Source of the DNA: Parcubacteria group bacterium M6-OD1-3
GTDB lineage: Bacteria > Patescibacteriota > Minisyncoccia > Moranbacterales > UBA9337
Reading direction: 5' to 3'
Length of the DNA: 32,564 bases
NCBI GenBank assembly: GCA_003056165.1
Contig: LSNR01000016.1
Coordinates: 1 to 32,564 of the forward strand
Shown here: piece after piece, positions 9,863 through 16,906 of the stretch
Layout of the letters: each line of letters begins with the position of its first letter
Numbering within the stretch: position 1 is the first letter of the stretch
The notes under the pieces: generated by a model
What the model was told of the DNA's origin: nothing
What the model saw: the letters and a program-made list of their open reading frames with translations, nothing else
Database searches by the model: none
Made by a program: the position numbers and the translations under genes

Positions 9863-9960
9863 GTATATTTTTAAGTTTGTCTTTGTGCCCGGGGCGGGAC
9901 TTCTCCTTACTCCGATGCGGAGCCTGGGCATTCGCGCCTGCTCATGCCCTTCAAGTCCCG
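9863..9960 (-). pseudogene. tRNA-Leu 3' fragment with 66-bp structured insertion
   Basis: The 40 bases at 9863-9902 repeat the 41 bases at 10003-10043, which are the 3' flank and last part of the intact tRNA-Leu, with one base length difference. In this copy the tRNA sequence stops after 16 bases. It is replaced by a unit whose ends form the inverted repeat CGGGACTT (9895-9902) and AAGTCCCG (9953-9960). Inside are two hairpins, CTCCG/CGGAG (9910-9922) and GGGCAT/ATGCCC (9926-9949). The right arm overlaps tRNA T-arm sequence. The GC content is far above the surroundings. From memory this unit looks like a dispersed Parcubacteria repeat; I cannot confirm it here. Confidence 0.7.
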
Positions 9961-10027
9961 TTACAATAACTTGAAGTTTTCTTTTTTTATTAAAATATTA
10001 ATGTATATTTTTTAAGTTTGTCTTTGT

Positions 10028-10110
10028 GCCCGGGGCGGGACTTGAACCCGCACGAATTTAACTTCACAGGATTTTAAGTCCTGCGTGTCTACCAATTCCA
10101 CCACCCGGGC
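10028..10110 (-). tRNA. tRNA-Leu (anticodon UAA)
   Basis: This is a complete 83-nt cloverleaf with acceptor stem GCCCGGG/CCCGGGC, a D-arm with TTGGTAG, anticodon stem CAGGA/TCCTG around CTTAAAA, and a long class II variable arm. The T-arm is GCGGG-TTCAAGT-CCCGC. Discriminator A is followed by CAA, so the CCA end is not encoded. It is flanked on both sides by damaged tRNA-Leu pieces. Confidence 0.95.
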
Positions 10111-10161
10111 AATCTATATAATATTGTAGGTACTTTATATGCTCAAGTGATAATTATGGTA

Positions 10162-10225
10162 CGCAGGACTTAAATCCTGGAACAAAGCTTAATCGCTTCA
10201 TTCCTACCAATTTCACCACCCGGGC
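10162..10225 (-). pseudogene. tRNA-Leu 5' fragment with hairpin and inverted anticodon arm
   Basis: On the minus strand the first 22 bases match tRNA-Leu up to the end of the D-loop, with one G to A change. Next comes a 24-base hairpin (GAATGAAGC/GCTTTGTTC, two G-T pairs, loop GATTAA), then CAGGATTTAAGTCCTGCG. That last piece is the reverse complement of the anticodon arm, with one T missing. The variable arm, T-arm and 3' acceptor are absent. It cannot be a working tRNA but would fold as a string of stems. Confidence 0.7.
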
Positions 10226-10250
10226 ATATGTATATTTTAATGTACTTTGA

Positions 10251-10349: not shown

Positions 10350-10419
10350 GGTTTTGCCTCCCTGCGGGAGATCACCCGAAGGGTGACAGACCTCTGCCTA
10401 ACCGCTCGGCCACGCGACC
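10350..10419 (-). pseudogene. tRNA-Cys 5' half with double-hairpin insertion in the anticodon loop
   Basis: The minus strand reads as a tRNA-Cys up to GGTCTG. A 29-base insertion follows (10386-10358) made of two hairpins, TCACCC/GGGTGA and CTCCC/GGGAG, and then the tRNA resumes with GCAAAACC before diverging. The T-arm and 3' acceptor are missing. The insertion falls in the anticodon loop between U33 and C35. The D-stem differs from the intact gene by a paired change (GCG/CGC to GCC/GGC), so this copy comes from a separate functional Cys tRNA and not from a recent local duplication. Confidence 0.75.
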
Positions 10420-10541: not shown

Positions 10542-10709
10542 TTATTTCTTTCGCCAATCTTTAATTAAAATACCTCCTCGCACTCTCTCTATACTAAGTT
10601 TTTGATGTTCACGCCAACCCAAATCATCAAGAAACTCTTTAGGTAAAATTATATACCTACTTCCCCGACCAGTCTTAGTCAATTTTCTTATTTCTTTTTC
10701 GTTTTTCAT
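10542..10709 (-). CDS. SpoVT/AbrB-type DNA-binding protein, 55 aa
   Basis: The product reads KLTKTGRGSRYIILPKEFL, then DLGWREHQKLSIER and GGILIKDW. This is the looped-hinge strand-turn layout of AbrB/MazE domains with the conserved GW-x4-QKL step, which is common in small CPR regulators. The length is that of one domain and nothing else. There is no Shine-Dalgarno. The gene starts 25 bases after a 22-bp palindrome that overlaps the predicted transcription start, so autorepression is a reasonable inference. No toxin partner gene is adjacent. A second, broken copy with nearly the same first ten residues lies at 14501-14557 beside another copy of the palindrome. Confidence 0.8.
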   Translation of the reverse strand: MKNEKEIRKLTKTGRGSRYIILPKEFLDDLGWREHQKLSIERVRGGILIKDWRKK

Positions 10710-10724
10710 ATTTTTCTAATTTTT

Positions 10725-10830
10725 TAAACTTTAGTAACGTACCATGGTACGTTACCATTATTATACACCACCTCTGCCAAATTTAAAAACAACCTTTCTA
10801 AAAAGGTTGTTTTTAAATTAGCTCCCTCTA
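10725..10830 (-). repeat. repeat copy A: operator-like palindrome, promoter and hairpin
   Basis: This is one of three copies of a unit of about 105 bp (others at 13194 and 14573). It contains a 22-bp perfect palindrome of GTAACGTAC half-sites around CATG (10734-10755). It also has TATAAT on the minus strand (10765-10760), a weak -35 TTTAAA 16 bases further up, and a 16-bp perfect stem with loop CTAA (10782-10817) that can terminate in either direction. On the minus strand the promoter fires across the palindrome into the AbrB gene. Confidence 0.75.
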
Positions 10831-11527: not shown

Positions 11528-11612
11528 CTCCGCGAGTAGGATTCGAACCTGCGACCAATTGATTAACAGTCAACTGCTCTACCTCCGCCAGCTGGCGGAG
11601 AGCTATCGCGGA
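11528..11612 (-). tRNA. tRNA-Asn (GUU) copy 1, with palindrome in the D-loop
   Basis: The 85-nt sequence has the acceptor TCCGCGA/TCGCGGA, anticodon arm GTTGA-CTGTTAA-TCAAT and T-loop of the intact gene at 16361. In the D-loop the three bases AGT are replaced by the 16-base palindrome TCCGCCAGCTGGCGGA (11584-11599). The T-stem carries one C-A mismatch (GCAGG/CCTAC) where the intact copy has GTAGG. The rest could still fold as a cloverleaf with an extra stem growing from the D-loop. Whether it is aminoacylated is unknown. It keeps the upstream TATAAAACAT and its own terminator, so it is probably transcribed. Confidence 0.75.
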
Positions 11613-11633
11613 ATGTTTTATAATGTTAACTAA

Positions 11634-11648
11634 CTAGGACGGTCCTAG
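11634..11648. repeat. CTAGGACGGTCCTAG palindrome, copy 1
   Basis: Seven-base perfect arms flank one central base. It lies 22 bases upstream of tRNA-Asn copy 1. Two tandem copies of the same 15-mer lie downstream of the intact tRNA-Asn at 16267 and 16299. The flank ATAAACGA is also shared. Confidence 0.7.
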
Positions 11649-11713
11649 AATTTATTCAATAAACGACCAGATAAGTATTGAGAATTTCTAAATAAAATCC
11701 TTATTATTTTCAT

Positions 11714-13193: not shown

Positions 13194-13298
13194 TAAACTT
13201 TAGTAACGTACCATGGTACGTTACCATTATTATACACCACCTCTGCCAAATTAAAAACAACCTTTCTGGAAAGGTGGTTTTTAAATTAGCTCCCTCTA
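13194..13298 (-). repeat. repeat copy B: operator-like palindrome, promoter and hairpin
   Basis: This copy is nearly identical to copy A: the 22-bp GTAACGTAC palindrome at 13203-13224, minus-strand TATAAT just upstream of it, and a stem close to 13 bp at 13250-13283. Here no AbrB gene follows; the promoter points into the leader and zinc-ribbon operon. The ends TAAACTTTAG and GCTCCCTCTA match copy A exactly, which marks the likely unit boundaries. Confidence 0.75.
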
Positions 13299-14572: not shown

Positions 14573-14680
14573 TAAACTTTAGTAACGTACCAAGTAACGT
14601 ACCATGGTACGTTACCATTATTATACACCACCTCTGCCAAATTAAAAACCACCTCTCTAGAAAGGTGGTTTTTAAATTTG
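14573..14680 (-). repeat. repeat copy C: operator-like palindrome, promoter and hairpin
   Basis: The third copy has the 22-bp palindrome at 14594-14615 plus one extra half-site AGTAACGTACC at 14581, the same TATAAT on the minus strand, and an 11-bp stem AAAAACCACCT/AGGTGGTTTTT at 14644-14673. Here the hairpin also serves as the terminator of tRNA-Asn copy 2, which begins at 14682. In copies A and B the same position reads GCTCCCTCTA instead of the tRNA end GCTCCGCGAG. Confidence 0.75.
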
Positions 14681-14681
14681 G

Positions 14682-14774
14682 CTCCGCGAGTAGGATTCGA
14701 ACCTGCGACCAATTCGACTAACAGTCAACTGCTCCCTGCCTGCCGGCAGGCAGGTACCACTGAGCTATCGCGGA
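14682..14774 (-). tRNA. tRNA-Asn (GUU) copy 2, with 20-bp palindrome in the D-arm; probably non-functional
   Basis: The acceptor and T-loop match the intact gene at 16361, but CCTGCCTGCCGGCAGGCAGG (14754-14735 on the minus strand), a perfect 20-bp palindrome, is inserted cleanly between GGTA of the D-loop and GAGC of the D-stem. The anticodon arm is also altered by one extra base and one substitution, so GACT/AGTC can pair around a three-base GTT loop instead of the normal seven. The T-stem has the same C-A mismatch as copy 1. Together these suggest a pseudo-tRNA, though the GTT anticodon is kept. Confidence 0.7.
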
Positions 14775-16259: not shown

Positions 16260-16323
16260 AACTATACTAGGACGGTCCTAGCTATTTTTAAAACTATACT
16301 AGGACGGTCCTAGATATTTTTAA
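16260..16323. repeat. two tandem 32-bp units each with CTAGGACGGTCCTAG
   Basis: Units 16260-16291 and 16292-16323 differ by about two bases and each centres on the 15-bp palindrome (16267-16281 and 16299-16313). A further half CCTGTCCTAG lies at 16236. The same palindrome occurs at 11634. All copies are near tRNA-Asn genes. Confidence 0.75.
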
Positions 16324-16330
16324 TAAACGA

Positions 16331-16354
16331 AAAAACAGCCTCTGGGCTGTTTTT
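16331..16354 (-). terminator. terminator of the intact tRNA-Asn
   Basis: AAAAACAGCC/GGCTGTTTTT with a four-base loop makes a 10-bp stem flanked by T-runs on either strand. It starts seven bases after the tRNA 3' end and can also stop the DEAD-box helicase transcript from the other side. Confidence 0.85.
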
Positions 16355-16360
16355 AATTTG

Positions 16361-16432
16361 CTCCGCGAGTAGGATTCGAACCTACGACCAATTGATTAAC
16401 AGTCAACTGCTCTACCACTGAGCTATCGCGGA
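16361..16432 (-). tRNA. tRNA-Asn (anticodon GUU), intact copy
   Basis: A standard 72-nt cloverleaf: acceptor TCCGCGA/TCGCGGA, D-arm GCTC-AGTGGTA-GAGC, anticodon arm GTTGA-CTGTTAA-TCAAT, T-arm GTAGG-TTCGAAT-CCTAC, discriminator G, no encoded CCA. All stems pair, unlike the palindrome-bearing copies at 11528 and 14682. It lies directly after the GIY-YIG gene, whose stop codon is in the shared TATAAAACAT leader. Confidence 0.96.
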
Positions 16433-16437
16433 ATGTT

Positions 16438-16683
16438 TTATAGTATTAAATTCTTCAGGTACTCTTTACCACACCCAATCTTTAAATATTTCTCTCTTTT
16501 TCTGGCTAAATTTCTTTCGCCAATAAATTCAGAGTACACTAATTTCCATGGTCTGTATCCCTTGGTAGATTTTGTTTGACCAAAATTATGACTTTTAATG
16601 CGTTTACTTACATTACTAGATAGTCCAACATATAATCTATTATCAACCATGCTCTGAATAACATAAATGTAATAATTATTCAT
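16438..16683 (-). CDS. GIY-YIG nuclease domain protein, 81 aa
   Basis: This is a single-domain GIY-YIG endonuclease of the small UvrC-like type. YYIYVIQS and LYVGLS form the GIY and YIG strands, the R in VSKRIKSHN is the catalytic Arg position, and ARKREKYLK holds the usual Glu. It ends GKEYLKNLIL. Upstream of its ATG, after only 11 bases, is a tRNA-Asn 5' half. Downstream its stop codon lies inside the leader of an intact tRNA-Asn. The nuclease is therefore bracketed by a direct repeat of the tRNA 5' part, as expected if it inserted in tRNA-Asn and restored an intact copy. The target is unknown. Confidence 0.88.
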   Translation of the reverse strand: MNNYYIYVIQSMVDNRLYVGLSSNVSKRIKSHNFGQTKSTKGYRPWKLVYSEFIGERNLARKREKYLKIGCGKEYLKNLIL

Positions 16684-16694
16684 AGTGTGAATGA

Positions 16695-16743
16695 CAACTG
16701 CTCCCTGCCTGCCGGCAGGCAGGTACCACTGAGCTATCGCGGA
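16695..16743 (-). pseudogene. tRNA-Asn 5' half with 20-bp palindrome
   Basis: TCCGCGA through GAGCAGTTG matches tRNA-Asn up to the anticodon stem. It carries the same CCTGCCTGCCGGCAGGCAGG palindrome (16723-16704) at exactly the same place as copy 2. The sequence then leaves tRNA homology and enters the GIY-YIG gene. Confidence 0.85.
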
Positions 16744-16906
16744 ATGTTTTTTCGATTTAATTTAATCTACTTCAATTTAATTTTCAAATTACTTTTCGTT
16801 AATTTACAACAAATCTAATTATACCCAAATTAAAAAAATAATCAAGTTTTTTAAAACCTTTCATTTTTCAAATCAAAACTAAACTGGGAAATTTTTTGAT
16901 GGGTAC

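Follow-up and report, generated by a model that had tools for sequence, protein, structure and literature searches.

A gene for a GIY-YIG nuclease, together with a GC-rich palindrome cognate to it, probably makes up a tiny mobile element that invades tRNA genes. The architecture recurs over phyla and tRNA isotypes, nucleases and hairpins are paired, and empty sites, filled sites, and hairpin-only relics all occur in the genomes compared. The locus described first lies in a 32,564-nt stretch of DNA, analyzed at its full length and called the window here. The window is contig 21 of a source genome of 818 kb in 26 contigs, which has six GIY-YIG matches. Judged by the nuclease gene, named Patescibacteria are among the close relatives of this small genome.

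A nuclease gene between two copies of tRNA-Asn

The features of this locus are all on the minus strand. Read in that direction, their order is tRNA-Asn positions 1 to 20, the palindrome CCTGCCTGCCGGCAGGCAGG, tRNA positions 21 to 29, 11 bases, the GIY-YIG open reading frame (ORF), 5 bases, and an intact tRNA-Asn. A sequence-only reading of the region had placed a tRNA-Asn 5' half 11 bases before an 81-aa nuclease, and our coordinates agree with it to the base. By alignment, positions 1 to 20 of the broken copy lie at 16743-16724 and positions 21 to 29 at 16695-16703. The 20-bp perfect palindrome (16723-16704), which the same reading had located within the upstream half, sits between tRNA positions 20 and 21 at the end of the D-loop, and no tRNA base was lost or gained at its insertion. 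Zero matches to the palindrome are expected in shuffled sequence, and the split alignment of the broken copy scored 29, versus at most 12 for shuffled tRNA.

The gene for the 81-aa nuclease (16438-16683; ORF and Pfam PF01541) stops at 16438, inside the 7-bp leader (16439-16433) of the intact tRNA-Asn(GTT) on its 3' side (16361-16432; ARAGORN, Rfam 76.9 bits), as had been noted from the letters. It had also been claimed that the 5' part of the tRNA forms a direct repeat around the gene, and this repeat is exact: the two 5' parts are identical over 27 bp up to the palindrome (7 bp of leader and 20 bp of tRNA) and over 9 bp beyond it. Repeat comparison puts the left copy of the duplicated target, the 7-bp leader plus positions 1 to 20, at 16724-16750; the leader of the intact tRNA together with its positions 1 to 20 repeats it. 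Upstream of the broken copy there is a promoter-like site (16818-16845, TTGATT-16-TATAAT, 10/12), a weak match of which a similar number occurs in shuffles; none was found in the 5 bp that separate the GIY-YIG stop from the intact tRNA-Asn, a weak test. A terminator-like hairpin (16331-16354) lies 3' of the intact tRNA-Asn. An Rfam scan of the window found no families other than tRNA and left the broken copy beside the GIY-YIG gene unmatched. The arrangement in the window is far beyond chance, and the same structure is found in dozens of unrelated genomes.

The window protein is a bare GIY-YIG domain (PF01541, E = 1.5e-15; 57.7 bits against a cutoff of 22.6). With TIGR01453, the model for group I intron endonucleases, it scored 18 bits, below the cutoff of 56. 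The catalytic residues Y7, Y18, G20, R28, H32, and E64, and likewise K68, are invariant in 16 relatives with 33 to 64% identity, and because the catalytic residues are invariant over this range, the nuclease is probably active. Homologues outside chromosomes are weak (at most about 38% identity) and were met in 13 phage records, 3 plasmid records, and one viral contig. Carriage by phage or plasmid was rejected for this reason.

Further broken tRNAs in the window and in its genome

The sequence-only reading had suggested that this nuclease could be the enzyme behind the other tRNA rearrangements of the window, and the tie is supported by the same or similar hairpins in the loops of extra tRNA-Asn and tRNA-Cys copies, also on the minus strand. 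A second tRNA-Asn copy (14682-14774) has CCTGCCTGCCGGCAGGCAGG again (14754-14735), at the identical place in its D-loop, with no nuclease gene and is a hairpin-only relic, while the D-loop of a third (11530-11612) is split by a different palindrome, CTCCGCCAGCTGGCGGAG (11600-11583). The relic of a tRNA-Cys 5' part (10350-10419) has a double hairpin (10386-10357) in its anticodon loop and is followed immediately on its 3' side by an intact tRNA-Cys (10320-10249). A broken tRNA-Leu copy (10150-10226; minus strand), which has no clear palindrome and is probably a further relic, likewise has an intact tRNA-Leu (10110-10026) 3' of it. Elsewhere in the genome, a second GIY-YIG gene lies between tRNA-Gln(CTG) and tRNA-Gln(TTG), with its stop codon inside tRNA-Gln(TTG); upstream of it is a third tRNA-Gln copy, the T-arm of which is interrupted by hairpins. 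The third exact copy of CCTGCCTGCCGGCAGGCAGG in the genome is in a tRNA-Thr fragment that adjoins an intact tRNA-Thr.

The window holds several additional repeats. A 35-nt exact direct repeat containing the tRNA-Leu 3' end (9868-9902 and 10009-10043) represents a further tRNA-Leu 3' fragment downstream of the intact tRNA-Leu. Palindromes of the CTAGGACGGTCCTAG type are repeated near the tRNA-Asn copies (16267-16281, 16299-16313, and 11627-11658), two of them terminator-like. An 86-nt repeat containing the palindrome GTAACGTACCATGGTACGTTAC is present in three copies (10733-10818, 13202-13287, and 14593-14678), two of which adjoin an AbrB-like gene (10542-10709) or its remnant; this repeat is probably the operator of the AbrB-like gene.

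The arrangement within the order and in other phyla

From 57 related genomes of the window's order, we assembled 95 PF01541 loci. The GIY-YIG gene ends at the start of a same-strand tRNA in 26 of the 95, and 4 more have a tRNA just upstream of the gene. Among control ORFs from 400 kb of sequence, 3 of 1,061 ended at a tRNA start (-45 to +30 of the start). Direct repeats bracket 27/94 GIY-YIG genes versus 5/411 control ORFs, and the upstream repeat at these loci is a piece of the same tRNA that is split by one or two GC-rich hairpins. The tRNAs concerned include those for Asn, Gln, Pro, Tyr, Leu, Ser, Glu, and Met. A mirror form is seen at three loci (L073, L080, and L193), where an intact tRNA is followed by the GIY-YIG gene and then by a hairpin and the tRNA 3' part.

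Two GIY-YIG clades, together about one-third of the genes in the order, are essentially without a tRNA link. In one of the two, a clade of ~94-aa proteins, the gene often lies between inverted TGTCATCCTGAA...TTCAGGATC palindromes; inverted flanks of this kind or of the TGTCATTCCCGC..GCGGGAATCC kind were seen at L005, L016, L021, L022, L025, L059, L093, and other loci. The TGTCATCCTGAA...TTCAGGATC flanks resemble the Neisseria NTS type, and the clade appears to comprise relatives of the Ssn/NTS systems. The ends of other non-tRNA GIY-YIG genes (L014, L033, L035, L048, L052, L058, L062, and L085) are formed by a 14- to 25-nt inverted repeat (e.g., CCCGGTAGTGAAATTTCAAA / TTTGAAATTCTACTACCGGG), often directly before the start codon of the next gene. 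At L032 (1399-2660), a GIY-YIG gene lies in a 16S rRNA gene near its 5' end, with inverted repeats CCACACCATTCAGC / GCTGAATGGTGTGG at the ends. The gene at L031 (about 1501 to 1701) is within a direct duplication of ~100 bp of a protein-gene 3' end, and the target principle is therefore not confined to RNA genes.

A further 81 loci were retrieved solely for the similarity of their proteins to the five closest ones, so that tRNAs played no part in their choice; the collection scan was built on the closer alignment set (A2), the wider alignment (A1) being too diverse. These loci span Bacteroidota, Patescibacteria, Omnitrophota, Scalindua, and Nitrospirae. A same-strand tRNA was present within 60 bp, the gene preceding the tRNA, in 63 of 81, compared with 3/1,061 in the control (Fisher p = 5e-83, a value that overstates independence because the 81 loci are related to one another and that compares slightly different intervals, the control being narrower and on the stop side). 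Upstream of the gene there is a broken copy of the same tRNA in 52 of the 54 testable loci. The check proposed with the sequence-only reading, whether homologues also adjoin tRNA or rRNA genes with duplicated ends, is answered strongly in its favor by these two counts and by the gene in 16S rRNA. The broken copy contains an insert of the CCTGCC..GGCAGG kind, usually in the D-loop, in 40 of 51 loci, and the window palindrome is present over at least 19 of its 20 bases in 18 of the 51 inserts. The ORF often stops 10 or 23 bases into the tRNA, at the TAG of positions 8 to 10 or at that of the D-loop. The arrangement occurs in isolate genomes, including Leptobacterium flavescens KCTC 22160, Polaribacter sp. 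BAL334, and Maribacter sp. 4G9, as well as in many metagenome-assembled genomes, and this recurrence led us to reject chance or an assembly artifact. In all, the arrangement spans at least five bacterial phyla and tRNAs of many kinds.

Hairpins pair with nuclease lineages

The exact 20-mer palindrome was found in 53 of 131 genomes of the window's order and its reversed control in none. When one copy was sampled per genome (30 genomes), about half interrupted a tRNA copy. The T-loop (GGTTC^GA), the D-loop, and the anticodon loop were the main sites, and an intact copy of that tRNA usually lay alongside; several of the other sampled palindromes appear, by eye, in the tip of another hairpin. Of the 11 genomes in which the window protein has its strongest homologues, 10 contain the palindrome (Fisher p = 5e-4), which in several of them lies 15 to 70 bp 5' of the GIY-YIG gene. 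Many genomes carry the palindrome without a close homologue of the nuclease. Different hairpins occupy the D-, anticodon, or T-loops in other lineages, and the more alike two nucleases are, the more alike are their hairpins (r = 0.40; across different isotypes, r = 0.25; 0/2,000 permutations each). Junctions adjoin unpaired positions of the tRNA cloverleaf at 19/20 and 43/47 loci versus ~0.53 expected, a placement that could reflect selection instead of targeting. These comparisons support the view, which exceeds the earlier reading, that the palindrome belongs to the system and pairs with the nuclease lineage.

REP palindromes in other bacteria are moved by RAYTs, and tyrosine transposases of the IS200/REP type (Y1_Tnp, RAYT) might likewise move the palindromes described here, the GIY-YIG gene being a passenger at tRNA hot spots. 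Such a mover would be at hand, since Y1_Tnp genes are found in 33 of 57 relatives, with three in the window's genome. However, none of 30 Y1_Tnp loci had a tRNA within 300 bp, none had the window palindrome within 150 bp, and the hairpins pair with GIY-YIG lineages instead. Given no link to tRNAs or to the palindrome in 30 loci, we rejected a Y1 transposase as the mover and consider it very improbable.

The same pairing bears on a free-standing homing endonuclease of the phage SegB type, which would cut tRNA genes lacking it, with recombination then copying the gene and its flank; the duplication would be a by-product and the palindrome a repeat that came to lie in the disabled copy by accident. 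Both the linkage of the gene to tRNAs and the duplications are consistent with this explanation, and SegB, a GIY-YIG enzyme among phage tRNA genes, is a precedent (PMC13096335). Yet the palindrome keeps a constant place by the nuclease across phyla and tracks the nuclease lineage, which argues that it is not incidental. Moreover, the adjacent intact tRNA bears the same D-arm sequence, so that the element would itself be cut, a point against simple self-protection. We consider homing of this type unlikely.

Empty, filled, and hairpin-only sites

Comparison of sister genomes bears on insertion itself. In genome G062, an element lies before tRNA-Leu(CAA), and five genomes of the same genus (G061, G042, G060, G012, and G054) have an uninterrupted tRNA and no element. 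Set against G061, the insertion in G062 is clean and has duplicated 43 bp of target, 28 bp of which are host leader. The palindrome follows tRNA position 15, nine more tRNA bases come next, and then the gene, the last codons of which are formed by the duplicated host leader. At an orthologous tRNA-Ser(CGA) locus in another genus, G102 is empty and G052 is full, while G046, G097, G101, and G099 keep a hairpin-broken copy with no nuclease gene; in G095, a different GIY-YIG lineage has a T-loop hairpin in the same tRNA. This series suggests a life cycle of insertion, then gene loss, then a hairpin scar, which would explain the extra tRNA copies in the window. The window had been read as a homing-type insertion with its target restored downstream, and the empty sites in sister genomes, the target duplication, and the intact downstream tRNA all speak for insertion of that kind. 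At the window locus and at those filled sites that were read, the insert carries the GIY-YIG ORF alone and no integrase gene. Duplications often end at the tRNA 5' end and do not include host leader, so that duplicated stretches differ in length and origin.

The intact tRNA is not always the native one. Sisters G043 and G079 carry the native tRNA-Leu(TAG), which in G022 is found again as the broken left copy; the intact tRNA to its right differs from it in acceptor stem and T-arm. Since the intact tRNA is thus unlike the native one, G022 is not a case of simple duplication, and its element may have brought its own tRNA. Left and right copies have also diverged at L183 and L186. Such loci are what would be expected of a natural cleave-and-rescue element, in which a replacement tRNA carried by the element makes up for the resident one that its nuclease destroys. 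On the other hand, the intact tRNA-Leu of G062 is native, with 99% identity to that of sister G061, and left and right copies are identical at most loci, and we regard cleave-and-rescue as quite unlikely. At L292 (G078:C59), a different palindrome, CCCGCCTCGCG...CGAGGCGGG, interrupts a native tRNA-Leu, and a foreign-type tRNA-Leu lacking the acceptor 5' strand comes after it; no intact tRNA-Leu(TAG) was found there.

The distribution of sites also bears on whether the nuclease is a domesticated host gene, cotranscribed with tRNAs and serving tRNA quality control, competence, or defence. Its strict same-strand position beside tRNAs and its invariant catalytic residues would fit such a role, but its presence is patchy, with empty sites within the same genus, and it is associated with many different tRNAs and frequently lost, leaving only hairpin scars. 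A host function of this sort is very improbable.

A proposed mode of insertion

In the mobile-element reading that we prefer, the palindrome would lodge in a loop of one tRNA copy, with the nuclease gene next to it in the orientation of the tRNA, and a second, complete copy of this tRNA would remain on the far side, so that the host would keep its tRNA. The nuclease would recognize both its own palindrome and tRNA-gene loops, probably while the DNA is single stranded and folded, and would start insertion by nicking at the palindrome or loop; repair of the break would copy the flanking target, and the survivors would be only those insertions that leave a working tRNA. We propose that the nuclease gene would be transcribed from the tRNA promoter, as is suggested by its same-strand placement and, weakly, by the lack of a promoter-like site between gene and tRNA.

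Whether this amounts to a previously unrecognized class of mobile element is a more tentative matter, to which we give somewhat less than even confidence. Such a class would consist of an ~80-aa structure-guided GIY-YIG nuclease and a palindrome, entering tRNA loops as folded single-stranded DNA. Each lineage would have its own hairpin and preferred loop, the tRNA would often supply the stop codon and probably the promoter, and palindromes in tRNA copies would be nonautonomous scars. The GIY-YIG hairpin element is apparently widespread and undescribed in the literature, our incomplete coverage of which turned up no published description of the arrangement, and there is a real chance that it merits a class of its own. 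It would account for the broken, hairpin-interrupted tRNA copies in tRNA clusters of Patescibacteria and Bacteroidota and would assign a function to many genes annotated merely as GIY-YIG nuclease family protein. It would mean that a parasite can inhabit indispensable genes without splicing, by leaving a working copy, and would unite GIY-YIG homing enzymes, REP-like palindromes, and tRNA genes as insertion sites, which are usually kept apart. The hairpin-nuclease pairs, with their differing loop preferences, also offer a ready set for tests of structure-specific DNA recognition.

Comparison with known systems

None of Ssn/NTS, SegB, REP/RAYT, and integrase elements combines all the features described above. 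At the level of the protein, there is a likeness to UPF0213 and SLX1-like GIY-YIG domains, in that 1zg2 and 1ywl (UPF0213) and SLX1 are the nearest solved structures to the window protein. SLX1 is a structure-specific nuclease that acts with a partner protein, and we know of no link between UPF0213 members and tRNA genes.

The Ssn family of Neisseria comprises site-specific GIY-YIG nucleases of single-stranded DNA that are associated with NTS repeats. As in Ssn/NTS, we find a small GIY-YIG protein with a cognate repeated palindrome beside its gene, and differing members with differing sequences. The element described here differs in that the palindrome is within a tRNA loop, the gene lies between two tRNA copies, and empty sites show insertion. 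With REP/RAYT it shares dispersed, nonautonomous palindromes and a partner enzyme gene flanked by them, but the partner is a GIY-YIG protein instead of a Y1 tyrosine transposase, tRNA loops are the preferred sites, and in 30 Y1 loci no Y1 transposase was flanked by the palindromes.

Integrase-bearing islands and viruses at tRNA genes similarly insert into a tRNA gene and restore a complete tRNA. A complete tRNA is kept here as well, but there is no integrase, the element is ~300 bp, it is usually the 5' part that is duplicated, and the broken copy contains a hairpin. Insertion sequences in CPR rRNA genes that carry GIY-YIG or LAGLIDADG genes have been described as sparse and apparently outside homing (PMC11270868). 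They resemble our element in having a nuclease gene within an RNA gene and in occurring in hosts of the same kind, and L032 is such a case; the differences are the tRNA targets, which are unmentioned in that work (PMC11270868), the tandem intact copy, and the fact that the element is not an intron.

In common with free-standing homing endonucleases, alleles without the gene have an uninterrupted target, as in the sisters of G062 and G022. SegB of T-even phages, a GIY-YIG enzyme among tRNA genes, is thought to cut tRNA-containing sequence and to drive segmental amplification via tRNA-segB microhomology (PMC13096335). The element shares with it a GIY-YIG nuclease beside tRNA genes and a tie to tRNA gene duplication (PMC13096335). 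It differs from SegB in residing in bacterial chromosomes, in encoding an 81-aa catalytic domain only, and in having a cognate hairpin, many isotypes as targets, and a tRNA that is restored at insertion.
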